Shown one piece after another: positions 2,798 to 37,719 of a stretch of DNA of 64,000 nt. The translations under genes and the position numbers were made by a program. How positions within the stretch are numbered: the first letter of the stretch is position 1; the number at the start of each line of letters is the position of its first letter. This DNA is from a virus, in the IMG/VR virus record IMGVR_UViG_3300009155_000051, positions 1-64,000 of that record; one strand, 5' to 3'. The notes under the pieces were generated by a model that did no database searches, was not told the origin of the DNA, and was given only the letters and a program-made list of their open reading frames with translations.

Positions 2798-3106
2798 TTA
2801 CAAGAAATGATAATCCAAATACATAACCTCTAAATTGTAGTGTTCTTCAATCCATCTCTCCATTATGTTCTGAATTTGTTTATAATTCATACTAAAAAAA
2901 GATGATAAAAATGACCATATTTCATCATAATTGATAAAAACATCACCACTTTTTTTATTGTATTCAAATATAACCTGTTTCCCTTTTTTATATAGAATAA
3001 AATTAGGTCTGTCTTCCGTTTCATACGGTTCCAAATCACCAAAGTTATCGCTCAACCAATTAATGACAGCTCTCTCTAATTTACTTTCTGTTATTATAAT
3101 TTTCAT
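2798..3106 (-). CDS. Tagged hypothetical protein (MKIIITES N terminus)
   Basis: 102 residues. The frame is open to 3145 but the glycosyltransferase stop lies at 3108, and the ATG at 3106 gives MKIIITESKLERAVINWL, the N-terminal tag shared with several unrelated proteins in this window. The rest (DRPNFILYKKGKQVIFEYNK) is a small alpha/beta domain of unknown function. The (I)TE site in the tag fits an (I/L)xE prohead-protease site; packaging into the virion is inferred. Confidence 0.7.
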   Translation of the reverse strand: MKIIITESKLERAVINWLSDNFGDLEPYETEDRPNFILYKKGKQVIFEYNKKSGDVFINYDEIWSFLSSFFSMNYKQIQNIMERWIEEHYNLEVMYLDYHFL

Positions 3107-3107
3107 T

Positions 3108-3818
3108 TTAAGTCCAATAATTATGTTCCTTTGTAAAGAACTCATCGTTATTTCTATTAAACCAAGATTTAATCATCATCTTAACCATATAGAATAAACC
3201 TTTGTTCTTGAATCGTCTTGATGTGGTATAAACAATTTTGTCCGCTACATAAAACTTATTTGGTTTTATCTTTGAACTTAAATGATAATCCTCAGCAAAC
3301 TTATCATCCGGATTAAATCCTCCCAATGAATTGAATACCTCTAAATTAAATAACATAAATCCTCCAACCGCAAATGGTGTAAAGAATTTGGTTAAGTATT
3401 GGATAACATCAAATGATTTATATACATAATTATACTTACCATCGTCAGTTCTTATTTTGGTTGTGGATAAATGATAATCATTTTCTTTCATTTGTTCAAC
3501 CATCTCCTTCAACAAATTATAATCGTTCAGGTATATGTCCGCATCCAAGAATAAAACATAGGGTGTCGTTATCTTTTTGGTTCCATTGTTTCTGGCTTCA
3601 GCGGGAAATCCTCCCTTAATAATCTTTACATTAATATTGGTATGATATGAACCAAGAATACATTTTTGCGTATATCCGTTGTCCGTTGAAGAATCGGCAA
3701 CCATAACATTTACACCTTTGATATTAGTTTGCAGGTTTAACAATCCTAAAGTTTTCTTTATAATTAACCCCTCGTTTTTGCAGGGTATGACTATTGTTAA
3801 ATCTTTACTTAAACTCAT
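3108..3818 (-). CDS. Family 2 glycosyltransferase
   Basis: 236 residues. The N terminus LTIVIPCKNEGLIIKKTL and VMVADSSTDN are typical GT-A nucleotide-sugar binding segments, EARNNGTKKITTPYVLFLDADIYL carries the DxD metal motif, and FAEDYHLSSKI the acidic ED acceptor-site motif. No membrane helix, so probably cytoplasmic. It starts 3 nt after a TATTTATA element and lies 1 nt from the next gene. It likely glycosylates surface polymer or phage components; substrate unknown. Confidence 0.88.
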   Translation of the reverse strand: MSLSKDLTIVIPCKNEGLIIKKTLGLLNLQTNIKGVNVMVADSSTDNGYTQKCILGSYHTNINVKIIKGGFPAEARNNGTKKITTPYVLFLDADIYLNDYNLLKEMVEQMKENDYHLSTTKIRTDDGKYNYVYKSFDVIQYLTKFFTPFAVGGFMLFNLEVFNSLGGFNPDDKFAEDYHLSSKIKPNKFYVADKIVYTTSRRFKNKGLFYMVKMMIKSWFNRNNDEFFTKEHNYWT

Positions 3819-3821
3819 ACC

Positions 3822-3829
3822 TATAAATA
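3822..3829 (-). promoter_or_regulatory. TATTTATA late-type promoter element
   Basis: Minus strand TATATTTATAGGTATGAG: the octamer ends 3 nt before the glycosyltransferase ATG. Confidence 0.5.
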
Positions 3830-3877
3830 TACCGGAACTAAATTATTGGTGTGTATATTTATTGTTAAATATTAATT

Positions 3878-4465: not shown

Positions 4466-4470
4466 AAAAA

Positions 4471-4490: not shown

Positions 4491-4494
4491 GTTT

Positions 4495-4857: not shown

Positions 4858-5697
4858 TTATTTTAATCCGTACATTGTGTTCGCTCCTGATGACAATTGA
4901 GTACTTGGAAGTGCTCCATCCCATTTCTCAATCCATTGTTGTTGTAACAACATCGGTGTTAAAGTAGATTGTCTCAACTTGTTTGATTCAGCCTCAGCTC
5001 TTGCGTTTGTTAACAAAGCCTCAGCATCTCCTTGTGCTTTCGCCACTTTAATCTTAGCTTGTGCTGTCGCAGTCTGTACTTGGTTCTCTGCAGTTAACGC
5101 CGCCTGTACCGCGTTGTTCTTAGCGTTAATCGCGTTCTTGAACGATGTTGGATATTCCAAGTTAGATGTAAATTGATTCACAATAAATCCTTCTTTAACA
5201 ACTTGTGATTCTAACAACTTTCGTACTTCAACTTCAAACAGAGCTCTATTAGAGATTAATTGTTCTGCGGTATATTTATTGGTCGCCAATCGGAATGCGT
5301 CATAGATAGCGGTCTTTAAAAATCCTTCCTCTAACTCCGGTAACGTTCTTCTATATTTAGCGAAGATTGATGGAGCTTTATCGGCACTTACAGAGTAGTT
5401 TAAGATAGGAGATACTCTGAACTCGGAACCATCTTTTGTGTTAACCGTGAAAGAGTTGTCACCATCCTCAGTATTCTTATACTCTTTGTGTTGGATAAAA
5501 GTTGGAAACTCATAAACCTTTGTTGTGATAGGATTATAAAATACCCATCCTGTACACGCTGTTACGTTATTAACTCCTTTACCGGAACCATACATATCAA
5601 CTTTAACCCCTACGTGACCTGCGTCAATTACTTCACAAGAACTGAACACTGCGAAAAACAATACTACTACACCTACAATTACTAAAATTCTTTTCAT
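4858..5697 (-). CDS. SPFH/prohibitin-family lipoprotein
   Basis: 279 residues. Signal sequence ends in FSSC with the lipidated Cys at 21. The SPFH (band 7) domain follows (VIDAGHVGVKVDMYG...GWVFYNPITTKVYEFP), then a long Ala/Glu-rich coiled coil (about residues 185-245, AQAKIKVAKAQGDAEALLTNARAEAE) typical of prohibitins. Such proteins form large membrane rings that protect or scaffold membrane proteases. A phage copy might modulate host membrane proteolysis or superinfection; that role is inference. Expressed from a host-like promoter 38 nt upstream. Confidence 0.88.
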   Translation of the reverse strand: MKRILVIVGVVVLFFAVFSSCEVIDAGHVGVKVDMYGSGKGVNNVTACTGWVFYNPITTKVYEFPTFIQHKEYKNTEDGDNSFTVNTKDGSEFRVSPILNYSVSADKAPSIFAKYRRTLPELEEGFLKTAIYDAFRLATNKYTAEQLISNRALFEVEVRKLLESQVVKEGFIVNQFTSNLEYPTSFKNAINAKNNAVQAALTAENQVQTATAQAKIKVAKAQGDAEALLTNARAEAESNKLRQSTLTPMLLQQQWIEKWDGALPSTQLSSGANTMYGLK

Positions 5698-9953: not shown

Positions 9954-10993
9954 TATATGTAATCAGGTAAAAACTCATTTATATATTTATCCACTAAACG
10001 ACTATCAGGGTAATCCGGTATTCTAAAATCAAGATAAGATTCATCACCGTTTTCCATTAAAGTATTCATCATTCCTATCCACGTACCAACACTGTCAATA
10101 TTATAATCATAATACCCCCAATTATTTTTTTCCGCAACATATTTGCGAATAGAGTCAACAACCTCATTTGGGTTAAATTTAATATAGTACACCTCTGTAA
10201 GTTTTTCAGGATTACCATATAACGCAACAGACTCCCATTTAGCACTTTTCATATCAAAGAATGTTTCCAATTCACTAGTAACATCATTATATACTTCCGT
10301 TTCATACGCACTATTATAAGCGTTTGAATGAATACCATATAAGTCACCTGACAAATCATCTAAATAATCATTATCAATTAAATACATAAACGATTCCTCA
10401 TCACCAATCACATTACCAACGTTTTCAGGTGTTAGATAAAAAATACCTTCATCATCAGCATAGTTATTAAACAAATCCGGACTATCATCATCAACCTCAA
10501 TTTTCCAATTGGTTAATCTATCTAAAATATATTTTTTTAATAGTTCCATATTTTCCGGATTAAGTTCTTCAATAACATCTCTATAGATATCATCTGTTGT
10601 ATTACCCCATCTTTCAAACATATCATTATCTTCCCCTAACACCGCTCTTGCAACATCTCTAGCTGTAGTGTCACGACCACCACCATAAAATAAATCAGCT
10701 AAGTCCTCTCTATCTCTAAGCCTTAAATAAAAGATACCATCTTTAGGTATTACATCAGATAGTTGTGCAATACATTTTTCTAATATTTCCTTATCATTAG
10801 CAATGTTTAACGAGTAATTTAATATCTCTATTTGATAATCACCTAAATTATTATCAAATGGGTCAATATAGTCCAATAAATCTTTTTTATGGAAAAATCT
10901 TAATATGTTTTCCACAGTTTCAAAATATGGTAATAATTCATCTATATCACCATTATTAAAGGCATTTACGTATTTTAAGTATTTCTCGTTCAT
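9953..10993 (-). CDS. Acidic hypothetical protein (346 aa)
   Basis: Strongly acidic, helical and Asn/Tyr-rich, with segments such as DLADLFYGGGRDTTARDVARAVLGEDNDMFERW and DLYGIHSNAYNSAYETEVYNDV. A similar composition is seen in the adjacent 10990-11511 product, suggesting a common functional module. Stop/start overlaps at both ends indicate one operon with 10990-11511 and 9591-9953. No family recognised. Confidence 0.7.
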   Translation of the reverse strand: MNEKYLKYVNAFNNGDIDELLPYFETVENILRFFHKKDLLDYIDPFDNNLGDYQIEILNYSLNIANDKEILEKCIAQLSDVIPKDGIFYLRLRDREDLADLFYGGGRDTTARDVARAVLGEDNDMFERWGNTTDDIYRDVIEELNPENMELLKKYILDRLTNWKIEVDDDSPDLFNNYADDEGIFYLTPENVGNVIGDEESFMYLIDNDYLDDLSGDLYGIHSNAYNSAYETEVYNDVTSELETFFDMKSAKWESVALYGNPEKLTEVYYIKFNPNEVVDSIRKYVAEKNNWGYYDYNIDSVGTWIGMMNTLMENGDESYLDFRIPDYPDSRLVDKYINEFLPDYI

Positions 10994-11511
10994 ATCTTAG
11001 TTTGACTTGTATAATCAGGTCTAAAGAATATTACTTTAATACCTGTTTTTGATGTTATGTTCTCTTTGAAATAATCATTGATTCCCCAATTTACCTCATC
11101 ACTTACTTCCCAACCGTAATCATCATTGTTTAGAGCATCATCTAAACTCATATGGTCACCACCTATATCAACACTACCAGCTAAATCATCAACCTTAACT
11201 TTAACGGTAACAAATGGTGCATCATCATTTAATCCCCATTTCTTAATATCGGTCACCTCAAAGAAAAAATTGTAAGCGCCAAAATTATTTATGTGGTGAC
11301 GATTTATAAGTAATAAGTTTTTAGCAAGGTCTTTTGATTGTTCCTCACCTCTCCATTCAATTAAGTATTTGTAGGCTTGGTCATAGGTAATCTCTTTATT
11401 ACCATCCAAACCAAATAGAGAAATAAAAGACTTATCTACACTACCACCATTTTTATCCCAATATCGGAATAAAATGTTTTTGTAATGAGATTCTGTAATG
11501 ATTATTTTCAT
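10990..11511 (-). CDS. Tagged hypothetical protein (MKIIITES N terminus)
   Basis: 173 residues starting MKIIITESHYKNILFRYW, the same eight-residue beginning as the 2798-3106 product although the remaining sequences differ. The body has acidic beta-rich segments (VTVKVKVDDLAGSVDIGGDHMSLDDAL). TATTTATAATTATAA lies 27 nt upstream, in the divergent gap shared with the DUF6915-like gene. Packaging by the tag is inferred. Confidence 0.72.
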   Translation of the reverse strand: MKIIITESHYKNILFRYWDKNGGSVDKSFISLFGLDGNKEITYDQAYKYLIEWRGEEQSKDLAKNLLLINRHHINNFGAYNFFFEVTDIKKWGLNDDAPFVTVKVKVDDLAGSVDIGGDHMSLDDALNNDDYGWEVSDEVNWGINDYFKENITSKTGIKVIFFRPDYTSQTKI

Positions 11512-14707: not shown

Positions 14708-15628
14708 TTAATTTGTTAATTCTATCACCGTGTTACCATCCGTTAAGTATTTTGGGTAAGTCCTCAGTATGTCTTGTTTAATTGTTTTCATAATGTTTTC
14801 CACTAGTTCAGGGTTGTCTTTGAAGTTGGAATCCGGAATCATTTTTCTATCAACCATTTTACCTGCTTTAAGAATTTTAACATATAGTTTAATCTTACCG
14901 TCAACCTCTTCAACATCGTTAATCATAAAATTAACTCTGTGAGCATTTTCCCCCCAACCACCACTAATTAATTTTGATTGGTTAGTTACACTATCTTTAT
15001 TCCCAACAAAGTTTGTAACTCTATCCGTATTAACTCTTTCAAGATTATAACGACCATCCATAAGACGTTCTATTTCACCCTTAGTTACACCAATAACATC
15101 TGAGTTTAAGTTTGAATCAAATTTAACAGGGTTGACTTGACTCATTTGTTTTATTGTTGAACTAGAATAAGTATCTAAAGTTCTATACCATTGATTATTA
15201 ATGAACAAGAATACTGGATACCAACCATACGATTTAATCACATAGTACCAATCATTATTATTATTCACATCCCATTGTCCTTCAACATTTGAACCTTTGA
15301 ACGGCATTCTAGCTGAAGCGTATTCATAAGCAGAATTGTTTGCAACTTTCTTTTGTTTGAATTGTTTAAAATCCTTAAAGTTTTCTTTGGTTATATTTTC
15401 GTAATCACCTTCCGGTCTGAAATTGGCGGTATAAACTTCATAATAAAAATTTGACTGATTAGACGATAAACCAAGAACCGGCAACATAGACTTAAGAAAT
15501 TTTAACATTTCCGGTTTAGTCTTAGTCTCCTTTTTATGTTTATCAATATACTTGAATAACATAATTTCCTTTTTAGTTAAAGGTCCTTCTTGTTCTTCTC
15601 GTAATATACGTCTAATTAATTCTTCCAT
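14708..15628 (-). CDS. Tagged hypothetical protein (MEELIRRILREEQEG)
   Basis: 306 residues. Starts MEELIRRILREEQEGPLTKKEI, equivalent to the second half of the shared tag with an LxE site. The body has a mixed alpha/beta domain with NNDWYYVIKSYGWYPVFLFINNQWYRT and a polar C-terminal domain. Part of a four-gene run with the ferritin-like gene. No function recognised; virion association is inferred. Confidence 0.68.
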   Translation of the reverse strand: MEELIRRILREEQEGPLTKKEIMLFKYIDKHKKETKTKPEMLKFLKSMLPVLGLSSNQSNFYYEVYTANFRPEGDYENITKENFKDFKQFKQKKVANNSAYEYASARMPFKGSNVEGQWDVNNNNDWYYVIKSYGWYPVFLFINNQWYRTLDTYSSSTIKQMSQVNPVKFDSNLNSDVIGVTKGEIERLMDGRYNLERVNTDRVTNFVGNKDSVTNQSKLISGGWGENAHRVNFMINDVEEVDGKIKLYVKILKAGKMVDRKMIPDSNFKDNPELVENIMKTIKQDILRTYPKYLTDGNTVIELTN

Positions 15629-15629: not shown

Positions 15630-16094
15630 TTATTTTAAGAATCTTAATTTATATAACGTAGAATAGATTAATTCTTGAATTGTATCAATTTGATTTTGAA
15701 TGTAAGATTCTTTCACACTTTTTCTTTCTTTTTCAATTGCAAGGTCTAACGCTTTGAAGTATTTAATTAATTGTTCCACACTTTGATAATCTTCAAGTTT
15801 TATTGAATCATATCCTGTAATGATATCGTGTTTACCTTGATAACTTTCAACTAAACCATCTGTTAAATCACCAATACCTTCATAAAATCCACCCAAAGCC
15901 ATATGTTCAGCAAAAGATGATTGCGATTTTGTTTGCCAGTGAAATATGTGAACTTGGATTCTAGAGTGAAGTAATTTAGAAACTAATTTATTAATATTAC
16001 TTGTTTCAGTTTTTTCTTCTTGTTTAGTTTCCGGCTCTTCTTGTTCTCTCAAAAACATATCTTTTTTCTTGAATTGCATTAATTTTTTTTCCAT
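15630..16094 (-). CDS. Ferritin/Dps-like protein (DUF5856-type)
   Basis: 154 residues. Residues 33-154 form a helical bundle NKLVSKLLHSRIQVHIFHWQTKSQSSFAEHMALGGFYEGIGDLTDGLVESYQG, which matches the phage DUF5856 ferritin-like family with its conserved H..HW, H and E residues. The N terminus MEKKLMQFKKKDMFLREQEEPE is short, basic then acidic, and contains LREQE like the tag of the gene beside it. Could protect or bind DNA inside the virion by analogy with Dps, which is inference. One base from 14708-15628. Confidence 0.75.
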   Translation of the reverse strand: MEKKLMQFKKKDMFLREQEEPETKQEEKTETSNINKLVSKLLHSRIQVHIFHWQTKSQSSFAEHMALGGFYEGIGDLTDGLVESYQGKHDIITGYDSIKLEDYQSVEQLIKYFKALDLAIEKERKSVKESYIQNQIDTIQELIYSTLYKLRFLK

Positions 16095-16095: not shown

Positions 16096-16425
16096 TTATT
16101 TTCCTATTATAAGGTCGCTATAACCTAGTTTATTCATTCCCCCAACTTCTTCGTCATTATTTTTTTTAAATTCATCATACATAAATGATTTAACAACTGA
16201 TGAAATACTTTGTTCTGCTTGAGCGATTTTACTTTCCATCCAATCTTCTAATTGGTCATCACCGTCATCTTCCATTTTTTCCCACATAGCTTGAGTCATT
16301 TTAGCAATGAGAAATAATTGTTGTTTTGCCATATATGAACCTTTTTGGTGGTCAGTTTCCGTAATGGTTTTCATTTTGGTAACCAACTTTTCAAGTTGTT
16401 TCTCTGTTAATATAATTTCTTTCAT
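16096..16425 (-). CDS. Tagged hypothetical protein (MKEIILTEKQLEKLV)
   Basis: 109 residues. The open frame begins at 16458 but a TATTTATA element lies inside that extension, and the ATG at 16425 yields the shared tag MKEIILTEKQLEKLVTKM. The remainder is a helical, acidic protein (MEKMEDDGDDQLEDWMESK...). The ILTE site fits (I/L)xE. Starts the operon 16425-14708. Confidence 0.72.
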   Translation of the reverse strand: MKEIILTEKQLEKLVTKMKTITETDHQKGSYMAKQQLFLIAKMTQAMWEKMEDDGDDQLEDWMESKIAQAEQSISSVVKSFMYDEFKKNNDEEVGGMNKLGYSDLIIGK

Positions 16426-17934: not shown

Positions 17935-18282
17935 ATGGAATTAAGTATAAACAAAAATAAATTCAAAGTCAAAACTGTTATATCATCCAAAGACACTAGT
18001 CAAGGAATGATGAACAAAAAATTTGATAATACCTTTAATGGTATGTTATTTATTATGTCCGAAGGACAACACTGTTTTTGGATGAAGAATTGTATAACAC
18101 CATTGGATATTATTATGATTGAAGATGATATTATAACAAAAATTCACCACAACTGTCCCCCTTGTAAAACCAAAGATTGTAGAAATTATTGTGGTGAAGG
18201 TGATATGATACTTGAACTTCAAGGTGGTACCTGTAAAGAATTAGGTATTAAGTCCGGAGACAAAATTGTTCATTACGATTGA
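17935..18282 (+). CDS. DUF192 family protein
   Basis: 115 residues. NTFNGMLFIMSEGQHCFWMKNCITPLDIIMIEDDIITKIHHNCPPC carries the signature FWMKNCxxPLDxxxxD of DUF192, usually a secreted small domain. This version lacks a signal peptide and has additional Cys (CPPCKTKDCRNYC). Start at the ATG just after TATTTATA; the upstream MCIYMY codons are within the promoter. Function of DUF192 is not established. Confidence 0.85.
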   Translation: MELSINKNKFKVKTVISSKDTSQGMMNKKFDNTFNGMLFIMSEGQHCFWMKNCITPLDIIMIEDDIITKIHHNCPPCKTKDCRNYCGEGDMILELQGGTCKELGIKSGDKIVHYD

Positions 18283-19676
18283 TTTATCTTCTCCTGTAAT
18301 AATTTTACAAACTCATTCTGAATCATTTTAGTAAACTTAACTGAAGGAGAATCTTCCGCCTCATTATATCTACTACTACCTTTTGGTGGTCTTTTTCCTC
18401 TACCTAAGTAACTTAATCCTGAAATATTTGTAATACATTTGTGACCCCCACTATTTGCTTGAATGAAATCCCAAACATTCACATTAATATTATCCAACAT
18501 TTGTCTATGTTCTTCAGGTAATTCTGAAAAAGGTTTTTCCATCATTTCACCAATGTGGATTAACTTCTCTTTACCATCTTCCATTGTTTTAAATTCTTTA
18601 CCATATAACGCAACAAAATCCTTAAATGTAAACCCAATTGATTCCGCATTAAAATCTTTTGAAGTTTCCGATACCCATTTAATAGTTGAAAGAGGTATTT
18701 CACGTTGTTTTAATTGGTCCTCCCATTTAGACAATACCTCTTGAGCTATCTCACCTAAATTAACACCTTTTAACTCTCGTTCTTTTTTGAAAGGATTACA
18801 AGATGCCTGAACTAATCCTAATGGCCAAGCAATAACTAAAAAGTCAGCTTCAGGATTATTTTTAAATGGTGTATATCTATCATAAGAACCTGGCTTAAAC
18901 ATTGACCCACCACCGTATTGAACGATAATATTACCTAATACTTTAACATTAGGACTGTCTTGCATTGATTTAACATACTCATCTTTATTTACTTCAAGTT
19001 GTTCCGGTTTTGCATAACCTTTTTCAACCATTATTGATTTAATAGTATTAAGAATATTCAATAACGATGGTGTACATTTCATTACCAAAGTTTCTAAGAA
19101 ACCTGGTTTATTTTTAAATGCCAATAATAGTTTGTTAACAACTAAACCCATTAACATTTTATTTTTTTCTAATGATTTTTCTTTATCTACATTGAATAAA
19201 TAAGATATAACTTGGTCCACACTAATTTCATTCATAGCGTAATTTGCCGAGTCAACCGTTGAAATAAGTAAGATATCTGAAGATGGAAATATATCTTTAG
19301 GAGATACAACTTGAGAAATTGTTTCAACATTTGAACGAGAACTTCTAAATGAAGTTGATTTAGTATCCTCAGCACCGGCTTGTCTATCGTGGTGGTCTGT
19401 ATGAATCACAAACATTGGTTTTCCGTGAGCAAAATCCACTAAGACAGGCATCACGTCCCCTTTGGCATCATTCTTCTTTACAGCGAATTCTTTATCACCA
19501 TATTGGATGATATGAGCATCAATTACATCAATACCGTTATTTTTAAGATACTCTTTCATCGCAATTGCTGTCGTAACACCATCTAAATCTTGGTGAAAAT
19601 ATATTTCAGCCTTAGGATATCTTTTAGCGAGAGCGTTAATATCTCTTAAACCACTTTCATTTATTAATTTTTTCAT
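18273..19676 (-). CDS. Tagged DHH-family phosphoesterase
   Basis: 467 residues. After a short tag (MKKLINESGLRDINALA) come HQDLDGVTTA (28-37, DHH motif I with D30 and D32), DFAHGKP (81-87) and HTDHHDRQ (92-99), the DHH metal site, and S..DSANY. DHH enzymes cleave phosphodiesters in nucleotides or ssDNA (RecJ, NrnA-like). The C-terminal domain is unassigned. The tag and location between 19679-20782 and the DUF192 gene suggest delivery with the virion; this is inference. Its end overlaps the convergent DUF192 gene by 10 nt. Confidence 0.82.
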   Translation of the reverse strand: MKKLINESGLRDINALAKRYPKAEIYFHQDLDGVTTAIAMKEYLKNNGIDVIDAHIIQYGDKEFAVKKNDAKGDVMPVLVDFAHGKPMFVIHTDHHDRQAGAEDTKSTSFRSSRSNVETISQVVSPKDIFPSSDILLISTVDSANYAMNEISVDQVISYLFNVDKEKSLEKNKMLMGLVVNKLLLAFKNKPGFLETLVMKCTPSLLNILNTIKSIMVEKGYAKPEQLEVNKDEYVKSMQDSPNVKVLGNIIVQYGGGSMFKPGSYDRYTPFKNNPEADFLVIAWPLGLVQASCNPFKKERELKGVNLGEIAQEVLSKWEDQLKQREIPLSTIKWVSETSKDFNAESIGFTFKDFVALYGKEFKTMEDGKEKLIHIGEMMEKPFSELPEEHRQMLDNINVNVWDFIQANSGGHKCITNISGLSYLGRGKRPPKGSSRYNEAEDSPSVKFTKMIQNEFVKLLQEKINQS

Positions 19677-19678: not shown

Positions 19679-20782
19679 TTATATTGCCGCCTTTACCGCA
19701 GTCCCAAACATACTTTTAAGTGCGTCTCCAATAAAGTCACCACCAGTTGATGCAACAGGTGCGGCAGGTGCCGATGTTACAGGAGCAACTGTCGTTGGTT
19801 GTCCATTAATAATACCACCAAAATCTTCCGCCCAAGATTTTTGACCTTCAGGTGTTTGATTAAATTGATTAACTTTTTCTTCTAAATCACTGTATTTTTG
19901 CATCAATTCATCCGGACCAACAAAATTCGCAACACCTAAAAAATCTAATAACCTTAAATACCATTTAGTTCTACCCATTAAAGAACGTGTTGCTCTGTTA
20001 CCAAACAATCTTGGAACACCTCCACGAACTTTTGACATAAATGATGCGTTCGCCAAACCTTTATTATCTCTGAATCCTCTAAACGCAGTATCTTTTTCTA
20101 TTTGTTTTATTAATCGTTTTTTTTCAAGTGAAGATAATGTTTTCCCTTCTAATTTCGCCAACTCAATTGAACGAGTACCCATTTTTGCTCCGGCACTTTT
20201 AAAAATTTGAATATATTCTTCAATAACTTTAACTAACCCTCTACCTAAAAATGGTACTCTACCAATTAACGCTTTTAACATATTAAGTAATTTAGTCCCC
20301 CAACTTGGTGCACTAGAAACCATTTTGGCAATAGGACCTCCCGCAGCTTTAGCCGTTTCCGCAATCTTAGCTGCATCACCAGCAACGGCCGCTGCTTTAA
20401 ACGCTTTAGTACTTGCCCCACCCTTTTTCATCACACCTATCGCCGTTTTACCAATTGCGTCACCAATAATTGGAACTGCGGATATTAAAGATAAAATAGC
20501 AAATAACTTATCCCCTTGTCTCCAATAACTAATACCATTAACAACATCAACAATACCTGTTGGGTCAAAAATACCAACAAGGTCACCCAATGTATTATAC
20601 CATTTAGCTTCTTTAAGAAGTTTTGATTTTTCAGGATAAGCCGAACGTAAGAACTCAACAACAAAAATTCTATCTTCTTTAGATAATGTATCCCATTTTT
20701 CTTGAAGTATTTTTTCCTGTTCTTCTTTATATATTTGAAGAATATGTTCTTTTAATTCTGATTCTGTTATAGTTTTTTTCAT
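19679..20782 (-). CDS. Tagged protein with toxin-like hydrophobic domain
   Basis: 367 residues starting MKKTITESELKEHILQIYKEE. Residues about 60-130 (LGDLVGIFDPTGIVDVVNGISYWRQGDKLFAILSLISAVPIIGDAIGKTAIGVMKKGG) resemble the glycine-rich membrane or pre-toxin regions of polymorphic toxins, which often precede a catalytic tail. The rest is basic and helical with a C-terminal Ala/Pro/Thr-rich linker. Forms an operon with the DHH gene 2 nt downstream. A virion-injected membrane-active protein is a hypothesis. Confidence 0.7.
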   Translation of the reverse strand: MKKTITESELKEHILQIYKEEQEKILQEKWDTLSKEDRIFVVEFLRSAYPEKSKLLKEAKWYNTLGDLVGIFDPTGIVDVVNGISYWRQGDKLFAILSLISAVPIIGDAIGKTAIGVMKKGGASTKAFKAAAVAGDAAKIAETAKAAGGPIAKMVSSAPSWGTKLLNMLKALIGRVPFLGRGLVKVIEEYIQIFKSAGAKMGTRSIELAKLEGKTLSSLEKKRLIKQIEKDTAFRGFRDNKGLANASFMSKVRGGVPRLFGNRATRSLMGRTKWYLRLLDFLGVANFVGPDELMQKYSDLEEKVNQFNQTPEGQKSWAEDFGGIINGQPTTVAPVTSAPAAPVASTGGDFIGDALKSMFGTAVKAAI

Positions 20783-20783: not shown

Positions 20784-21143
20784 TTAATCCCAGCTTAAGA
20801 AAAATTTAATTTGATTATCTTCACATCTTAATTTTCCGGCACCCCATCCATTAATCCCTTTAAACTCAATCGCCTCACCAAGTTTCATCGTAACTTTATC
20901 AGTTAAACGAATCGCAGAACCAGTCTTAACAACAATTCCACCAACTGTGGGAGCACCTTTAACAGCAATTACCTGTAAAGCGTTTGTTTTAGGTAATCCA
21001 TAATCAGGATTTTTTTTAATAGCATTTAATAATGTATCAGTAAAACTATTTGCCCCACCCATCATTTCATCTTCGTTAATTAAATTATATCTTGAACGGA
21101 TATCGTTTCTTTCTTCTTCGGAAATTATAAATCTTTTTGCCAT
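20784..21143 (-). CDS. Tagged hypothetical protein (MAKRFIISEEERNDIRSRY)
   Basis: 119 residues. The ATG at 21143 is preferred because a TATTTATA element lies 15 nt upstream inside the longer open frame. MAKRFIISEEERNDIRSRYNLINEDEMMGG is a related tag form (ISE). The body is a beta-rich small domain (NPDYGLPKTNALQVIAVKGAPTVGGIVVKTG). One base from 19679-20782. Function unknown. Confidence 0.68.
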   Translation of the reverse strand: MAKRFIISEEERNDIRSRYNLINEDEMMGGANSFTDTLLNAIKKNPDYGLPKTNALQVIAVKGAPTVGGIVVKTGSAIRLTDKVTMKLGEAIEFKGINGWGAGKLRCEDNQIKFFLSWD

Positions 21144-24896: not shown

Positions 24897-26258
24897 TTAG
24901 TTAGTTCTCATAATATAATACGTCACACCGTTAACTTCTTCACTATCATATTGACCATCATAACTATTCATAATACCCCAACCATCAGAATCAACTAAAC
25001 CTTGAGCAAGTTCGTCTTCATCAATATATTCTTTAATATCTAAACCAAGATTTTTAAGATAATCTAATGGGTCTCTTCTTACGTCTCTAACAAGTTCCGC
25101 AACTTTAGTATCAATCATATCGTCAGTTGGTTCAGTTTCAACCTCAATACTATCTAACTCTTCTTGAAGAGCTTCAATTTGATTTTCTAAATCCTCATCA
25201 TAATCATAATAATTTTCATCATCAGAATCTAATTCAAGTCTCTGTTGATTTAAATCCTCAATTTGAGATTCAAGTTGTTCTATCCTTTCTTCTTGTTCAT
25301 CAGTCAATTGATAATCCTCATCACTGAAGTAACTATCCGGATAATCTCTAATTTGATAATCATAATCTTCTTCCGCCATATTAACAATTGCGTCAACATC
25401 TAAATAATCTTCAATAAATGATTCATTAAATCCATCAGCCCCAACATCATCAATATAAGATTTTGCGTATTGTAATGCCGCCTCGTCCATCTCTTCATAA
25501 GTTCCAACCGAGTATTCATTACCTTTAAATCCAGGTATTAAAACTTCAAATTGAGTTAAACCATAATGAGTATATCTTGGTTGTGGATACATCATATACA
25601 CATCTACATTATTCTCTTCTAATTCTTCAATTTCACTTTCAGTCTCTTCAATAGCATCAGTTAATTGACTCACCATATCATCGTCATCAGTCTCATCATA
25701 TCTTTTCTGTAACTCATCTAACTTAACTTTAAGAACTTTCAACTTTTCTCTACCATCCTCATCTAAAGCATCAATTTCACCAATACTTACTAAGTTATCA
25801 AATAACGCGTGAGCCTTTTCTCCGGTCTCATCACCTTGTTCTAAAGCCCACTCATCGCCATCACGAAGAGATTCTTGTTCACCAAGTTTAGCATTTAGTT
25901 CTTGTTTTTCTCTAATTCTCTCACGAGGAGAATTATGGTCAGAAATATATCCCTTAACTTTCATATCACCAAGATTGGACACATTAGTTCTACTAATATT
26001 CAATGACCCATCAATATAGGCAACATTACCTAAACTATCAGTTGGAGTACTATCAAGGGTTAAGTCACCAGTAATCCATAAAGGTTTACCTTCAAACCTT
26101 TTCATTTTAGTTATCGCTTTCCCGTGATAACTACCCAATCTCATTAATTCCAAATATTCTTCCGGAGATATTTTATAATATTCCCCCTCAACTTCTTCAG
26201 TAAGTTTTTTAATATACTTGGATAATGATTTCTCGTTAAGTTGTATTCTTTTATTCAT
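24897..26258 (-). CDS. Tagged acidic protein with coiled coil
   Basis: 453 residues. Starts MNKRIQLNEKSLSKYIKKLTEEVEGEYYKISPEEYLELM, with tag LNE; the true ATG is 26258 as it follows TATTTATT by 3 nt. Residues about 60-100 have GNVAYIDGSLNISRTNVSNLGDM, a short beta solenoid-like repeat, then long acidic coiled coils (EEERIEQLESQIEDLNQQR). Very low pI. Such proteins are common in large phage genomes; role likely virion or scaffold, inferred. Confidence 0.72.
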   Translation of the reverse strand: MNKRIQLNEKSLSKYIKKLTEEVEGEYYKISPEEYLELMRLGSYHGKAITKMKRFEGKPLWITGDLTLDSTPTDSLGNVAYIDGSLNISRTNVSNLGDMKVKGYISDHNSPRERIREKQELNAKLGEQESLRDGDEWALEQGDETGEKAHALFDNLVSIGEIDALDEDGREKLKVLKVKLDELQKRYDETDDDDMVSQLTDAIEETESEIEELEENNVDVYMMYPQPRYTHYGLTQFEVLIPGFKGNEYSVGTYEEMDEAALQYAKSYIDDVGADGFNESFIEDYLDVDAIVNMAEEDYDYQIRDYPDSYFSDEDYQLTDEQEERIEQLESQIEDLNQQRLELDSDDENYYDYDEDLENQIEALQEELDSIEVETEPTDDMIDTKVAELVRDVRRDPLDYLKNLGLDIKEYIDEDELAQGLVDSDGWGIMNSYDGQYDSEEVNGVTYYIMRTN

Positions 26259-26608: not shown

Positions 26609-27427
26609 ATGAAATACATAAATGAAAATTCAAACAAAGGATTAGTTAGTATATTTGCTGACTTTTTAGTTAAAGAGATAAACAAAACACATAATTACGA
26701 TGTGGTAATTGAAGTTACAGACTGTGGTAAGTTTTTTGTCGTTAACGGTTTAACCAACTCTGATAAGATTTTGGATATGGTTCAAATGAAAGAAGAGTTC
26801 ACCAAAGAATATAAAACATTATTAGAGAAGTACGGTTACACTAATCTAAACATTATTGACCTGATTATTTATAGTCAGGAATTAGCGAAGAAAACAGATT
26901 ACACTTTTGACTTCTACTCATCAACAAGACCATCATATCACCACAAGGTTATTAATACTTTAGTTGATAACCCACAACCTTTATTCAACACTATTCAATA
27001 CACAACCAAATTGGAGTACGAGTTGGACTATTCAGAGAATAACACATCTAATTTACCGTATTTCACATACGCACCGTTAAATGTATCATCCGAATTTCCC
27101 CACGGGTATAGTTTAAGTATGGGAAGACAGGAGTATTACTATTCAGAATACATCTGTAATCAATTATTTGATGTAATACTAACCGATAAGTTAACTTTCA
27201 AATATTCGTCCGTTAAAGAAGATGAGGACAATCAAATTAATCTTTACTCAACGAGTTTATTCCCACGAAAAGATATAATCTCTATGGTCTTAGATGTATT
27301 TGATTTTGATATGTTAATCTTTAATGATAAAATAAAAGGTTACGATATTATGGAAGATTTAACTAAACCATTTGATAAAAAACCTTGGCTCGTAAAAGAT
27401 AAAGTTAAAGACCTGATATTATTCTAA
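26609..27427 (+). CDS. Hypothetical protein (272 aa)
   Basis: Starts MKYINENSNKGLVSIFADFLVKEINKTHNYDVVIEVTDCGKFFVVNG. Middle section has PSYHHKVINTLVDNPQPLFN and a Tyr-rich GYSLSMGRQEYYYSEYI. The form resembles the S-adenosylmethionine synthetase N-terminal fold (VVIEVTDCGKFFVVNG, GRQEYYYSEYI), but essential motifs are not clear, so I leave it unnamed. Terminator follows. Confidence 0.6.
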   Translation: MKYINENSNKGLVSIFADFLVKEINKTHNYDVVIEVTDCGKFFVVNGLTNSDKILDMVQMKEEFTKEYKTLLEKYGYTNLNIIDLIIYSQELAKKTDYTFDFYSSTRPSYHHKVINTLVDNPQPLFNTIQYTTKLEYELDYSENNTSNLPYFTYAPLNVSSEFPHGYSLSMGRQEYYYSEYICNQLFDVILTDKLTFKYSSVKEDEDNQINLYSTSLFPRKDIISMVLDVFDFDMLIFNDKIKGYDIMEDLTKPFDKKPWLVKDKVKDLILF

Positions 27428-30504: not shown

Positions 30505-31863
30505 CTAATTTAAATAATAGAATCCCATACCTTCATCATCAAGTCTATCTCGTAAACCTTGTGGTATATTAATGTTTGGATTAACATCTTTTAAGTTAAT
30601 AAACGCAAGATTTGGTAATTCTTTAATACATTCAGGTAAAGATTGTAAATCTTTATTACCCGGAAGAGCTAAGAAATTCAAATCTTTTAACTGACAAATT
30701 GTATCAGGTAATGTTTTTGCAATGTTTTGTAACATTAACGCTTCTAAGTTTTTAAATCTACCAATAGATGTTGGAACCTCTAACGCAATTCTTTCTTGAC
30801 TCTTATTATTGATTAACAATTTAGTAATTGTATCAGGTAAAGACTCAAATAATTCATCAAAACCATATAGAGCAATGAATTTACCTGAAGCACTATCCGG
30901 ATAGTTAATCTCAACAATATCACCACCACCACTTGTTAAACCTTTAGCAAATTGAGGTTTAAAATATTCCTTAAGTTCCGCACCTCTACCATTTAAGAAC
31001 TCTACTAAATTAATTCCTCTATCTCTTCTGTCCATATATTGATTAGATGGGAAGTGGAATTGATATCTTTCTTTAGGTAACCCTGTTTTTTTACCAAACT
31101 CTGTTGAACTATTAGGTAGTATTACATAATACGGACCATCTTTGATATAGTGACTAAAATAGGTACCATCAAGTTTTGATGTACACCAATTAGTTTCATC
31201 ATTCTCATCTCTAGTATCATAATAACCACCAAAATAAGCACCAGCGTTTTTACCTTCGTCATTATTTTCAGTAATTTTTACAATTGTCCAATCAGGTGTA
31301 ACAATTTCAATATTTGAACCGGGATATTGATATGGATTTTCTTTTGTAATTCTTTCTTCTTTAGATGATTTAGAATCTTTAGATAATTTAAATTCATCAA
31401 CAGCTAAAGATAATGTTGCCGGTGTATATTTTGCAATATCTCTTTCACCTTCAGGTAATCTACCTTTAAATCTTTCAAATTTTAATAAATCAACATTTAT
31501 TTTATCCATATCTTCTATGAATAAACGTCTATATTCTTGAGCCGCTCTCTTATATTCAGGTGTACCCACCTCATATTCCAATTTAGGTTGAACAAAGTTT
31601 CTCAACATCCATTGAACATATTTACCAACTTTAACTTTTGACATTTCTTCAAAAGTTGCACCTTCTTTATTAAACCCTTGAGGAGCTTTAGTATCAGGGT
31701 CTCCAAATATTATATTTTTTAATGTGTCAAAATCCATAATACCTTTTACCGGTCTTCCTGTCTCACTCTTTGCTTTTGGGTTTGGTTTAACAAACTTGTC
31801 GTAAAATAATTGTAAACGTGCGTTTTCAGTTATTAAATTAGATAGTAATGATGTAATTTTCAT
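30505..31863 (-). CDS. Leucine-rich repeat protein with tag-like N terminus
   Basis: 452 residues. Starts MKITSLLSNLITENARLQLF, a variant of the shared tag with an ITE site. Residues about 190-300 form a beta-rich domain (PDWTIVKITENNDEGKNAGAYFGGYYDTRDENDETNWCTSKLDGTYFSHYI). The C-terminal 110 residues contain leucine-rich repeats (FKNLEALMLQNIAKTLPDTICQLKDLNFLALPGNKDLQSLPECI). LRRs bind proteins, so it may act on a host target. Both a host-like and a TATTTATA element precede it. Confidence 0.78.
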   Translation of the reverse strand: MKITSLLSNLITENARLQLFYDKFVKPNPKAKSETGRPVKGIMDFDTLKNIIFGDPDTKAPQGFNKEGATFEEMSKVKVGKYVQWMLRNFVQPKLEYEVGTPEYKRAAQEYRRLFIEDMDKINVDLLKFERFKGRLPEGERDIAKYTPATLSLAVDEFKLSKDSKSSKEERITKENPYQYPGSNIEIVTPDWTIVKITENNDEGKNAGAYFGGYYDTRDENDETNWCTSKLDGTYFSHYIKDGPYYVILPNSSTEFGKKTGLPKERYQFHFPSNQYMDRRDRGINLVEFLNGRGAELKEYFKPQFAKGLTSGGGDIVEINYPDSASGKFIALYGFDELFESLPDTITKLLINNKSQERIALEVPTSIGRFKNLEALMLQNIAKTLPDTICQLKDLNFLALPGNKDLQSLPECIKELPNLAFINLKDVNPNINIPQGLRDRLDDEGMGFYYLN

Positions 31864-32906: not shown

Positions 32907-33134
32907 ATGGAAACTGTAGAAGGAGAAATCATTGACGTAACGGAAATAAACAAAAACGTTGTACCTGAACCCCCTAAAAAAAATTGTAAAACTTGTAAAC
33001 AAGGTAAAGAAGCTGTATCGTCTGTTAGACAAACTCAAAAAATACTAGTATTCGCATCTCTTTATTTTTTATTTGCCGGTATATATGGTACAATAAAATT
33101 GATTAAGGATATTCTACATTATTTTGGATATTAA
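32907..33134 (+). CDS. Small membrane protein with Cys pair (75 aa)
   Basis: METVEGEIIDVTEINKNVV..., then NCKTCKQG and a C-terminal transmembrane helix ILVFASLYFLFAGIYGTIKLI. CxxC near residue 26-30 may bind metal. Stop shares TTAA with the convergent DnaJ gene. Preceded by TATTTATT. Function unknown. Confidence 0.65.
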   Translation: METVEGEIIDVTEINKNVVPEPPKKNCKTCKQGKEAVSSVRQTQKILVFASLYFLFAGIYGTIKLIKDILHYFGY

Positions 33135-35678: not shown

Positions 35679-35854
35679 TACTCGTCTCCTTTTCTTTCTG
35701 CTAAAATCTCTTTTCTAAGACTATCCAATAATTTTTTCAATTCTTGTGCAGATTTTCTAGCTCTTGTACCGGCACTTTTATTTCCGGCAAAGAATTTAGA
35801 TGTGTCAACTGATAATTCCTCAGTTAAAGACTTAATTTGTTCTAATGTTTCCAT
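35678..35854 (-). CDS. Histone H1-like protein of the Hc1 family (58 aa)
   Basis: METLEQIKSLTEELSVDTSKFFAGNKSAGTRARKSAQELKKLLDSLRKEI matches the Hc1 (PF07432) pattern FxGNKxAGTRARKxxQELKKLxxxxRKEI. Hc1 of Chlamydia and Bacteroidota homologues bind and condense DNA. A phage copy could compact genome DNA or shape transcription. Too short for the original track's cutoff but clearly coding, with an overlapping TAATG junction to the next gene. Confidence 0.8.
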   Translation of the reverse strand: METLEQIKSLTEELSVDTSKFFAGNKSAGTRARKSAQELKKLLDSLRKEILAERKGDE

Positions 35855-35935
35855 TTTAAATTTAGTTTAATAATTTATTTTATTATGTAAAAAATAATTT
35901 TTTTTATGTTATAGTAAACACTATAGGGGTTTTTT

Positions 35936-36403
35936 TTACTTTTTAACATTTTTATCTAACACTTTATATATAGTTGATACCATATCAATGTCTGATTTTG
36001 TAAAGGATTTTTTAACGTTGAATAGTTCTTTAAAGAATTTACCGATGGAACTTCTAACCTTTTCGTTCTTTTGATGATAAAAAACTTCCGTAAAGAACTC
36101 ATAAAAATAATCGTAATGTTCCCCGTTATTTTGAAAATTAATACCTTCTTGTTTGAAATTACTAATTATCTTACCCCAACACCATTCAAAATGTTTTTTA
36201 TTGTCGTTTTCCGTTAAGATAATTTTAGTTTCATTAGGCAAGTCATTTTCACCTAAATAAGTTTCTAAAATTAAAATATTAAGTGAATGGGCAAAATCAA
36301 AGTATAATTCCATTTTTTCAGGAATCATATTATTCACCCGGAACCAAACGTCAACGTCTTCCGGTGTTAAAGGTTTTGATATGTAGTTAAAAAAATTCTC
36401 CAT
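35936..36403 (-). CDS. Hypothetical phage protein (155 aa)
   Basis: MENFFNYISKPLTPEDVDVWFRVNNMIPEKMELYFDFAHSLNILILETYLGEN... This pattern appears in other large phages as I recall, but no function is known to me. The start codon lies in the 3' arm of a perfect hairpin followed by AATTTTTTT (see terminator entry). Confidence 0.7.
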   Translation of the reverse strand: MENFFNYISKPLTPEDVDVWFRVNNMIPEKMELYFDFAHSLNILILETYLGENDLPNETKIILTENDNKKHFEWCWGKIISNFKQEGINFQNNGEHYDYFYEFFTEVFYHQKNEKVRSSIGKFFKELFNVKKSFTKSDIDMVSTIYKVLDKNVKK

Positions 36404-36420
36404 AGAGTTCGTCTATGGAG
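36398..36420 (-). terminator. Terminator or attenuator containing a start codon
   Basis: Minus strand CTCCATAGA-CGAAC-TCTATGGAG, a perfect 9-bp stem, then AATTTTTTT. The ATG of the 35936-36403 gene (36401-36403) is inside the 3' arm. Confidence 0.65.
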
Positions 36421-36450
36421 AAATTATAAGTTATATTATGTGTTTGTAAA

Positions 36451-37719
36451 TTATTGAGTTATTTGATTATAACCCATCAACGATTTCATTCTATTAAATT
36501 CTTCACTAATTAATTTTTCTTGTTTTTCATTACTCTCAGTTTTAAGATGTAACCCATTTCCCGATTCTTGACCTGTTTTATCACTTATAACAGGTTGAGG
36601 GGCTTTATTGTATGCCGCTCTTTTAGCTTTATTGTACGCACCTTTCTTACGAGTTTTATTTAATTTTTTATTCTCATCAGTTTCAACAGCGTTAGCCCAT
36701 TCTGAATTATTTCCAGTTTTTGATGAACCTTCAATATTATTATCCATCCACTCTTCATTAGGATGAATTTCATCATAATCTAAAGTTTGCATCCCAGGTC
36801 TTAAGTAATCGTCAATAAATTCTTTACCATCGTCAGAAAGTTCATAAGCAGTTTTCTTCATTTTTTCTAACTCTCCATTCCCTTTAGGGAATACTTTTGG
36901 TTCCATTGAATATTCACCTTTAGAACCGTCTTTAAGGTAATCTTTCATTTTTTTAGTAACATCTTTAATGTAATCGTCATTTTCTTTACCAGAACCTTTG
37001 TGAGCCTTCTCATACGCCGAATAACCTTTAGGTGTTCCACCAATTGGTTTTAATTTTGTGTCGGTTGTTTTTTCAATCGCTTCAGTTTTTTGTTCTTTAA
37101 CAATTCTTTCAATCATAGATACTAATTCACTTTCAGTTAATCTATAAGATTCTTTAACCTGATATTCTTTACCATCCACTTCAAATGAATCTTCCCCACT
37201 TTTTTTAGCGTTAGCCAAGGCCCCTGAAAACGCATTACCTTCGTCTGTTTCAGTTTTTTTACCCTTTCTTAACATCTTAAAATCTTCAGCATCAATCTTA
37301 TTGTTTTTGTTTCTATCCAATCTTTTTTGACGACCTTTTAAAGATTCGTTCATATCTGAACCACAGAATTTTAACGTTCTTTCATCTTCAGGACCAAAAT
37401 TATCCATATGATATTTACAAGCATCTTCATTTTTAGAATCTAACTCTTCATTATCCGAATCACCTAACACCATATCTTCTTGGACATAGTCAAATTCTTC
37501 TGAATTATCAATGTCTTTAACATCGTAGATACCTTCTTCCATATCACCACTTTTATATCCACACTCATTACATTCACCTTCATACATTGTCCCACCGCAT
37601 TCGCAAACACTACCGGATTCCGTTAATTTAGAAACAATATTATCGGCTCTATCTTCTAAAGTTTCTTTTAAAATTTTAGATACCAAATTGTCTAAGTAAG
37701 TACTATTTAATTTTTTCAT
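36451..37719 (-). CDS. Tagged acidic protein with internal second tag
   Basis: 422 residues. N terminus MKKLNSTYLDNLVSKILKETLEDRADN is tag-like. A second tag (YRLTESELVSMIERIVKEQKTEA) occurs near residue 195 and the C terminus ends EEFNRMKSLMGYNQ. A small zinc ribbon (CECGGTMYEGECNECG) is at about 38-53. The acidic, low-complexity make-up suggests an internal virion or scaffold protein. Late-type TATTTATA 13 nt upstream. Function inferred only. Confidence 0.7.
   Translation of the reverse strand: MKKLNSTYLDNLVSKILKETLEDRADNIVSKLTESGSVCECGGTMYEGECNECGYKSGDMEEGIYDVKDIDNSEEFDYVQEDMVLGDSDNEELDSKNEDACKYHMDNFGPEDERTLKFCGSDMNESLKGRQKRLDRNKNNKIDAEDFKMLRKGKKTETDEGNAFSGALANAKKSGEDSFEVDGKEYQVKESYRLTESELVSMIERIVKEQKTEAIEKTTDTKLKPIGGTPKGYSAYEKAHKGSGKENDDYIKDVTKKMKDYLKDGSKGEYSMEPKVFPKGNGELEKMKKTAYELSDDGKEFIDDYLRPGMQTLDYDEIHPNEEWMDNNIEGSSKTGNNSEWANAVETDENKKLNKTRKKGAYNKAKRAAYNKAPQPVISDKTGQESGNGLHLKTESNEKQEKLISEEFNRMKSLMGYNQITQ

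Follow-up and report, generated by a model that had tools for sequence, protein, structure and literature searches.

Short N-terminal (I/L)-x-E leaders on unrelated proteins of large freshwater phages as probable capsid-targeting peptides

Do the similar peptides at the start of otherwise unrelated phage proteins label them for loading into the head? This question is raised by the window analysed here, 64,000 nt of the IMG/VR virus record IMGVR_UViG_3300009155_000051 (positions 1-64,000). Proteins that are injected with phage DNA are known for few cultured phages. Because the tag resembles the head-loading label of T4, the injected proteins of uncultured viruses might be listed from sequence alone. 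The eleven N-termini quoted in the sequence-only reading (genes starting at 3106, 11511, 16425, 19676, 20782, 26258, 31863 and 37719 and, in looser form, at 15628, 21143 and 63965) are all present in the DNA, and all of these genes lie on the minus strand except that at 63965 (Table 1). The eighth main example, at 37719, is the weakest, its first [IL]xE being LKE at residues 17-19. Further candidates start at 57662, 16094 (..MFLRE/QEE), 40244 (..NINE/D..LLNE/Q) and, on the plus strand, 26609 (MKYINE/NS). At least 599 related stretches are present in IMG/VR; these viruses are an abundant freshwater phage group, and the large tag-bearing ones seem to infect Bacteroidota bacteria. They are probably the bS21-encoding large phages of freshwater Bacteroidetes described in the accessible text of PMC9723584.

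Table 1. Tagged and candidate proteins of the window. A slash marks the putative cut point after Glu. Class A, the most frequent form, is M-K-x-I-I-T-E followed by S, N or D, with a leader of seven residues.
Protein	Coordinates	Strand	Leader	Remarks
Class A tagged protein, 102 aa	2798..3106	-	MKIIITE/S at 3086-3106	from the tagged paralogous group with the most members
Class A tagged protein, 173 aa	10990..11511	-	MKIIITE/S at 11491-11511	6/6 orthologues found are tagged
Protein with class F leader	14708..15628	-	MEELIRRILRE/E at 15596-15628	
DUF5856 protein	15630..16094	-	..MFLRE/Q at 16044-16094	PF19174, E 6e-17; PHROG: starvation-inducible regulator, Dps-like
Tagged protein	16096..16425	-	MKEIILTE/K at 16402-16425	
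DHH-like protein	18273..19676	-	MKKLINE/S at 19656-19676	PF01368, E 1e-4, below cut-off
Tagged protein, function unassigned	19679..20782	-	MKKTITE/S at 20762-20782	called a toxin-like membrane protein in the sequence-only reading
Protein with class C leader	20784..21143	-	two sites, IISE/E and LINE/D, at 21072-21143	
Acidic coiled-coil-like protein	24897..26258	-	MNKRIQLNE/K at 26232-26258	
Candidate with short tag	26609..27427	+	MKYINE/N at 26609-26626	weak
LRR protein	30505..31863	-	class E, MKITSLLSNLITE/N at 31825-31863	PF23598, E 5e-6, below cut-off
Acidic protein	36451..37719	-	several [IL]xE sites: ILKE/T, KLTE/S, LTE/SELVSMIERIVKE	
Protein with two-site leader	39654..40244	-	NINE/D and LLNE/Q at 40134-40244	
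Small class E protein	57480..57662	-	class E leader at 57624-57662	
RuvC-like protein	63965..64000, runs on to 64564 in the record	+	MKKILKE/S at 63965-63985	

Our scans confirmed that the N-terminal tag is more than chance. In 2161 proteins pooled from seven related large-phage records, the motif [ILV][TNS]E[SANDQK] was seen 90 times starting at residue 5 against 2.6 expected from protein interiors, with a further 24 at residue 7 and 15 at residue 11. Over residues 2-17, with the expectation taken from the interiors of the same proteins, the counts were 9 against 1.5 in the window's own 89.5-kb record (G000), 24 against 4.3 in G001 (214.8 kb), the nearest of its large relatives, 30 against 7.0 in G002 and 37 against 7.5 in G003, while three Bacteroidota phages whose heads are not T4-like, each scanned over 50 kb, gave 1 against 0.7 (crAss001), 2 against 1.6 (phi14:2) and 3 against 0.9 (phiST). 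The contrast is weaker for the broader version [ILV]xE[SANDQK] (17 against 7.6 in G000 and 70 against 29 in G002, but also 14 against 7.6 in phi14:2; 2 against 3.9 in crAss001 and 6 against 7.8 in phiST). When N-termini were shuffled, 13 of the 101 G000 proteins stood against a mean of 3.8 (maximum 9), and 42 of 334 in G002 against 12.5 (maximum 24). The cultured relative Flavobacterium phage immuto_2-6A (NC_055915; host Flavobacterium sp. LMO8; immuto) showed no excess by this test, since its 12 of 216 proteins (shuffle mean 7.3) fall within the shuffle maximum of 15. A DNA pattern for MKxIITE with an S-like residue following was found in at least 120 IMG/VR stretches, compared with 29 in total for the permuted MKxIIET. 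A tblastn search of 50,697 phage records with short tag peptides gave no match at E 10, a result of little weight given the 24-residue query, and we found no title or abstract opening that reports such tags in these phages. The loose rule for calling a protein tagged also takes in the ordinary N-termini of a thioredoxin (27736-28059) and a DnaJ (33131-34054), and a glutaredoxin (27456-27743) via an internal Met. Mixed tag status is found in 49 families, which include pattern look-alikes; as a whole they are not taken as evidence, and we use individually named cases.

The claim that the bodies behind the tag are unrelated was borne out. The 93 proteins with the class A tag fall into 31 BLAST families, which profile merging reduces to 26 groups, the largest holding 37 proteins. 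One body stands behind three different leaders (MKVIITE/T, MKLINTIKILIE/N and MSLQDTIRRILRE/E) and a second behind two (MKDLIRKILRE/Q and MNLQENINRIHQMMGGLITE/E). The G032 orthologue of a tagged HExxH protein starts 13 residues later, right after the tag, an exact tag loss. Two immuto proteins have a leader in common (70% identity over residues 1-33), beyond which only a weak 19-residue match is found. Candidate tagged genes of immuto lie at 25061, 111675, 113188, 117631 and 118632, with the putative cleavage motifs ILSE, IITE, IIKE, FLTE and FLVE. Judged from these comparisons, the tag behaves as an exchangeable module with several leader classes, being gained, lost or swapped on unrelated domains. 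A G002 relative of the window's coiled-coil-like protein carries MGRKLRLTE/S, the BLAST family of the LRR protein uses three leader types, and homologues of the DHH-like protein in 634- and 642-kb phages have T4-like leaders. The motif is absent from the G032 relative of the DUF5856 protein and from the G032 orthologue of the RuvC-like protein, which starts MTKKTLQNN, and the G036 orthologue of the 19679..20782 protein is without the tag.

One tagged protein (L123, 18348-18911) is Acb1-like. The 19679..20782 protein has no significant family match in Pfam or PHROG, and the RuvC-like protein has none in Pfam; a 37-protein scan that included the G001 orthologue of the latter returned RuvC-like/Holliday junction resolvase PHROG matches, the matching member not being named. 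In an AF2 model of the 2798..3106 protein, residues 1-4 have pLDDT below 50 and a helix begins at residue 7, and the leader is placed outside the fold; Foldseek with this model gave no match in the PDB at E 0.001. The model of the second class A family (10990..11511) was unusable, with a pLDDT of 38. Tagged genes neighbour each other more often than the shuffle mean in 6/6 large records, but G025 and G036 are the only ones to pass the highest shuffled count. There is no strong purging of further motif copies from tagged bodies (152 seen against 142 expected, a ratio of 1.07, compared with 1.24 in untagged proteins).

The presence of a gp21-like protease was confirmed for relatives but not for the window's record: neither the 89.5-kb record nor G001 has a match to PF03420 (gp21-type protease) or gp23, and both are probably fragments. 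PF03420 lies above cut-off in 2 of the 20 relatives first searched (G002 and G003), many of the others being fragments. Of 33 tag contigs, 12 have it, and exactly those 12 have gp23. The S77 protease gene lies at 28476-29201 in G002 and at 124660-125241 in immuto. When contigs are size-matched (55-121 kb), PF03420 occurs in 4 of the 20 that carry the tag pattern, compared with 1 of the 9 that carry the permuted one, a small and weak control. The gp23 capsid protein of the relatives carries LINE at 80 of 80 loci, followed by A in 79 and S in one. This site aligns with E65-A66 of T4 gp23, with E-A in all four aligned sequences; excerpts of PMC5694885 give the T4 gp23 propeptide as 65 residues. 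By homology, the predicted protease specificity fits the tag, the same motif standing at the capsid protein site. In motif density, the gene after the portal ranks 4th among 277 families, the capsid protein 11th and the gene between protease and capsid protein 14th, whereas the portal (PF07230) is depleted (rank 276, 4 seen against 12.5 expected). The capsid protein places 3-4 of its 4-6 motif sites before residue 60, in the propeptide, and two motif-rich unnamed genes of the head module lie where T4 has its prohead core and scaffold. The family richest in the motif is glutaredoxin-like, and no role in the head is known for others near the top.

We consider it probable that the tags act as capsid-targeting peptides, loading tens of proteins, one of them Acb1-like, and that the prohead protease cuts them. 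An ordinary fold element might give similar N-termini, namely a beta strand and helix N-cap (T-E-S) opening one big paralogous family plus a few look-alikes. T-E-S/N ahead of a helix is a common N-cap, and a single group takes in 37 of the 93 class A proteins. We nevertheless regard this reading as unlikely: the tag is common to 25 other groups, peaks at residue 5 relative to protein interiors and is lost exactly in the G032 orthologue of the HExxH protein, and the one good AF2 model shows a loose leader that takes no part in the sheet.

The peptide could also bind the core only, so that tagged proteins are prohead core parts consumed during maturation rather than injected. The resemblance of several of them to folded enzymes (DHH-like, RuvC-like, HExxH and Acb1-like) makes this quite improbable, despite the many copies of the same motif in two head-module genes. 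The 36451..37719 protein, which has no PHROG match and only weak Pfam matches (EF-hand, E 0.0065), may itself belong to the prohead instead of being injected. Least probable, in our view, is another sorting or expression signal that binds a phage compartment, the polymerase or the ribosome, with I/L-x-E as a coincidence. Some jumbo phages do use further compartments (PMC13282480, available portion), but the tag residues match the conserved capsid-protein site and YxxFIxE leaders replace the tag in other giant phages. Synonymous codons vary at the tag, so an RNA signal was rejected.

For the capsid-targeting reading, we infer that tagged proteins are packaged, cut at the tag and injected, and that the cargo disarms the host early. 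The tags would be short, exchangeable N-terminal propeptides drawing proteins into the prohead core; a phage S77 (gp21-type) protease would cut after the Glu of (I/L)-x-E; the mature protein would be left inside the head and ejected along with the genome; and the Acb1-like and HExxH proteins, for instance, would act early to disarm the host. We lean, by less, towards a wider reading, a general modular head-export code in T4-related large Bacteroidota phages up to the 634-735-kb giants, in which exchangeable (I/L)-x-E leaders of several classes would make virion cargo of tens of unrelated proteins in each genome, among them LRR proteins, nucleases, metalloproteases and an Acb1-like anti-CBASS enzyme, and the injected arsenal of uncultured phages would be readable from sequence. 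With such a rule, candidates for first-minute effectors could be named in abundant freshwater phages and in the 634-735-kb phages. Each of the three T4 internal proteins blocks one type IV restriction enzyme, according to excerpts of PMC12373910, so a genome with tens of tagged proteins, among them the Acb1-like one, would be a rich counter-defence source. The tags could also provide loading peptides for giant capsids.

Other large phages offer partial parallels. The inner-body or ejection proteins of phiKZ and SPN3US are head proteins that a related protease cleaves behind Glu, and some of them are ejected into the host (PMC5694885 and PMC13282480, in the parts available). The motif is S-x-E in phiKZ and A-x-E in SPN3US, where several propeptides exceed 100 residues, whereas the leaders here are short, with (I/L)-x-E within about 7-28 residues. 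The excess described above was scanned for as [ILV]-x-E in the first residues and differs from the phiKZ/SPN3US pattern of S-x-E or A-x-E with mostly long propeptides. The authors of the bS21-phage study suggest that bS21 may be packaged, and the accessible text mentions no tag (PMC9723584). In G002, a reverse-strand bS21 gene lies between portal and protease. N-terminal extensions of bS21 are reported in huge phages in the available text of PMC7162821; bS21 as a tag carrier was rejected here, as it is present in 9 of 10 records and extended in 0 of 9, G002 included. The bare motif occurs within ordinary bS21 starts (IKE/G in L463, VDE/K in L464), so the motif alone proves nothing.

The closest likeness is to the capsid-targeting sequences (CTS) of T4 IPI, IPII and IPIII, which, as far as excerpts of PMC9026906, PMC3012670 and PMC12373910 go, are also short and N-terminal, place I-x-E before a small residue and precede non-homologous bodies. 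Here too, a short N-terminal peptide common to non-homologous proteins ends in (I/L)-x-E with a small or polar residue next, and some relatives share with T4 a gp21-type protease and a protease site in the capsid protein. The proposed role as a T4-like cleaved targeting signal is partly supported. The unrelated bodies, the protease in relatives and the capsid motif at the T4 cleavage position favour it; the window's tags leave the T4 targeting residues 4 and 7 unmatched, and there are several tag classes instead of one. IPII and IPIII have Y4/F7, whereas class A leaders have seven residues without Y4/F7; leaders of the form aromatic-x-x-hydrophobic-[ILV]-x-E number 0 of 101 proteins in G000 and 0-2 per large relative. 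T4 has three internal proteins, compared with tens of candidates per large record here, in several leader classes, whose packaging and cleavage are predicted from sequence. T4 internal proteins are variable, but contrary to expectation the tags here are no commoner in accessory genes (66 of 522 in single-genome families against 61 of 526 in families of all six large records). The best reading is that the tags would work like the T4 CTS, as candidate rather than established members of that class. T4-like aromatics are kept, in contrast to the window's tags, in the leaders of the 634-735-kb phages, the Mahaphage clade in the accessible text of PMC7162821, whose PF03420 matches lie below cut-off (E 1e-4 to 7.5e-6). 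There, Y/F/W-x-x-F/Y/W/L/I/M-[ILV]-x-E leaders stand on many proteins. In the 735-kb phage, 30 of the 514 proteins of its first 400 kb have one (shuffle mean 1.8, maximum 6), and in the 634-kb phage 22 of 541 do (mean 2.1, maximum 7). A 41.6-kb stretch of the 642-kb phage counts against such an excess, with one T4-like leader in 64 proteins. The DHH body found in the window stands, in the phages of 634 and 642 kb, behind a YxxFINE leader, MISKYNQFINE, comparable to MKTYQEFIAE of T4.

The eleven N-termini listed by the sequence-only reading are all present in the sequence, and a motif of this kind is concentrated near protein starts. Gene models, chosen by a mechanical procedure as ORFs of 40 aa or more taken greedily by length, covered the source record (G000) and six related large-phage records (G001, G002, G003, G025, G032 and G036). 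Among the 2161 proteins of at least 60 aa from these seven records, 90 carry [ILV][TNS]E[SANDQK] with its first letter at residue 5; for residues 7 and 11 the counts are 24 and 15. Protein interiors predict 2.6 per position. [ILV]xEQ is in excess at about residues 13-27 (11 at the peak position, 1.1 expected). Three Bacteroidota phages lacking T4-like heads, each sampled over 50 kb, gave observed/expected counts for the narrow motif at residues 2-17 of 1/0.7 (crAss001), 2/1.6 (phi14:2) and 3/0.9 (phiST); the broader [ILV]xE[SANDQK] was also raised in phi14:2 (14/7.6). The DNA pattern for MKxIITE.. retrieved at least 120 IMG/VR stretches, and the permuted MKxIIET.. retrieved 29.

At least six leader classes were distinguished by eye (table). 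A strict rule assigns 93 proteins to class A, 4 to 19 per record. They form 31 BLAST families, or 26 groups once the bodies are merged by profile-profile comparison, which upholds the claim that one tag precedes differing bodies, and the largest, a paralogous group, holds 37 of the 93. A looser rule yields 298 proteins (15 to 56 per record) and also takes in ordinary N-termini, such as those of thioredoxin, glutaredoxin and DnaJ.

The leader is a module. A HExxH protein (HEVTH or HEITH; ImmA/IrrE-like by eye, with zero Pfam matches) begins MKLIITE↓S in four records (↓, putative cut), and its 44% identical orthologue in G032 starts 13 residues later. One body follows three leaders, MKVIITE↓T.., MKLINTIKILIE↓N.. 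and MSLQDTIRRILRE↓E.., and a second follows two, MKDLIRKILRE↓Q.. and MNLQENINRIHQMMGGLITE↓E... Three leaders also occur in the LRR family, which was assembled by single linkage: class E, class A and ..LLRRVIVE↓Q. A RuvC-like protein opens with MKKTLKE↓S or MKKILKE↓S in six records; in G032 it opens with MTKKTLQNN. Two proteins of the cultured Flavobacterium phage immuto have a common leader, 70% identical over residues 1-33 (E 3e-12), and, past it, just a weak 19-residue match; the adjacent immuto genes with T4-like leaders (table) offer a possible test system. An AlphaFold2 model built from 11 sequences for the largest class A group (window 2801-3106) has a mean pLDDT of 91; its residues 1-4 score below 50 and the first helix begins at residue 7, so that a cut after E7 would remove the loose end only.

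Leader classes and located features (↓, putative cut after Glu)
Feature	Position	Leader or basis
Class A		MKxIITE↓S/N/D
Class B		MKKxIxLTE↓SDLxxIIxxIxxE↓Q
Class C		xxIISE↓EExxxIxxxYxLxNE↓Q
Class D		MNLxENIxRIxxMMGxxxE
Class E		MKLxxTIxxIITE↓A
Class F		MK(D/E)LIRxILRE↓Q
HExxH protein, with and without 13-residue leader	L098:7601-8056; L404:590-1003	
Acb1-like anti-CBASS protein	L123:18348-18911; G036 position 29610	class D
Adjacent immuto genes	NC_055915 117631-118931	MADNFNLRSFLTENK and MENFDLKKFLVENK, T4-like
DnaJ gene	window 33131-34054	domain search
DnaJ-zinc-finger-like gene	window 7522-8340	by eye only
Glutamine-synthetase-like gene	window 22576-23688	by eye only
Prohibitin-like gene	window 4858-5697	by eye only

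The window takes up positions 1-64000 of an 89,538-base IMG/VR virus record; beyond it, the genes resemble, by eye, those for tail, baseplate and ribonucleotide reductase. Long proteins close to the tail genes carry PTPTPT-type repeats (window 53440-63959, record 64605-69528). The baseplate protein has at least 599 related stretches in IMG/VR, and only six matches among phage records (24-27% identity), four being immuto isolates or copies and one a 484-kb uncultured phage. In the 272-kb relative G002, a bS21 gene on the reverse strand separates a T4-like portal (PF07230) from the protease, an arrangement also described for freshwater Bacteroidetes phages by Chen et al. 2022 (PMC9723584).

A gp21-like protease, which the sequence-only reading proposed to look for in the remaining genome, turned up in relatives and not in the record itself: PF03420 scored above cut-off in G002 and G003, two of the 20 relatives first searched (the other 18 being mostly contigs below 110 kb), and neither it nor gp23 was found in the source record or in G001, the nearest large relative. 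In 33 further contigs with the class A DNA pattern (all those of at least 55 kb among the 80 matches listed of at least 120, without G002 and G003), gp23 occurred in 12 and the protease in the same 12; both were present in seven of the eight contigs of at least 165 kb, and at least one strong phage-group marker, with baseplate and DHH proteins added, in 26 of the 33. The 15 permuted-pattern contigs, which are smaller (25-116 kb), gave the protease in one and the DHH protein in none; two matched the baseplate protein weakly and in part (E about 1e-8). Within 55-121 kb, 4 of 20 tag contigs and 1 of 9 controls have the protease, which do not differ clearly, and 13 of the 20 have a strong group marker of some kind. 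The contig test therefore links the class A pattern to the phage group, and by way of the group's long records it links the protease to that group as well; it does not show that tag and protease go together across phages. In the record G028 (IMGVR_UViG_3300032296_003307, 268,739 bases), the gp23-like capsid gene and the gp21-type protease each occur twice, at 31-35 kb and 233-238 kb, which would reflect either a second head module or chimeric assembly.

The capsid protein carries ENQAS(F/H/Y)LINE in 80 of 80 loci, and the next residue is A in 79 of them and S in the other. On alignment, the E and A of LINE↓A fall on E65-A66 of T4 gp23, and this pair is invariant across T4, G002, immuto and the 484-kb phage; the T4 gp23 propeptide has 65 residues, and the T4 portal is not processed (PMC5694885). 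When 277 protein families were ranked by composition-corrected density of [IL]xE[ASGNQ], the motif was over-represented in the gene after the portal (4th), in the MCP (11th) and in the gene that lies between the MCP and the protease (14th). The portal came 276th (4 observed, 12.5 expected). Pfam names neither the gene after the portal nor the protease-MCP gene, which by their place would be prohead core and scaffold. Five MCPs have sites at 4, 49 and 58, two of them also at 42, and the mature part adds one or two more. A glutaredoxin-like family ranks first and further top families lack a known head role, so the ranking lends support without being specific.

Most of 37 representative tagged proteins received no name from Pfam, NCBIfam or PHROGs. 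DHH-like, LRR, SLT/endolysin-like, metalloprotease and RuvC-like matches involve one member each, and several further family matches look spurious. The G001 protein matching Acb1 (anti-CBASS; 33.4 bits, cut-off 27) has the leader MNLNEELSKMKSIMGINE↓NK and a close relative in G036. T4 57B, annotated as an RNA ligase and which we take to be the Acb1 of T4, starts without such a leader. The tagged bodies are consistent with an injected arsenal and are no proof of timing.

From these sequence comparisons, we consider it probable that the leader works like a T4 capsid-targeting sequence (CTS). The leaders are not filed as T4 CTS members, because the aromatics that serve targeting in T4 are absent from the window's leaders, tags are no commoner in accessory genes than elsewhere, tagged bodies show no clear purging of further motif copies, the immuto tag count lies within the range of N-terminal shuffles, and one paralogous group makes up so much of class A. 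The short and multiple leader classes, their number per genome and their occurrence in these phages were not reported in the titles, abstract openings and text passages covered; the leader principle is already known from T4.

T4 IPII and IPIII begin MKTYQEFIAE↓A and IPI begins MKTFKEFTSTTTPVSTITE↓A, the cuts being placed in this analysis. For IPIII, ten residues are enough, with targeting mainly by residues 4 and 7 and processing by 8 and 10 (PMC9026906). The T4-like pattern [YFW]xx[FYWLIM][ILV]xE near the protein start occurs in 30 of 514 proteins from the first 400 kb of the 735-kb giant-phage record LR756501 (shuffles 1.8, maximum 6), in 22 of 541 from LR745206 (shuffles 2.1, maximum 7) and in 1 of 64, the DHH protein alone, from a 41.6-kb stretch of LR756502. 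PF03420 matches fall below cut-off in these three (E 1e-4 to 7.5e-6) and above it in the 484-kb LR756508 (W04), where the match is split into two segments, with about 1 kb between them, within one 576-aa open frame (156507-158102), an apparent in-frame insertion. The window's DHH protein begins MKKLINE↓SGLRDI.., and its homologues begin MISKYNQFINE↓EVGLRNI.. in LR745206 (634 kb) and MLRKYGQFINE↓EVGFKNL.. in LR756502 (642 kb); thus one body bears a T4-like leader in giant phages and a short form here.
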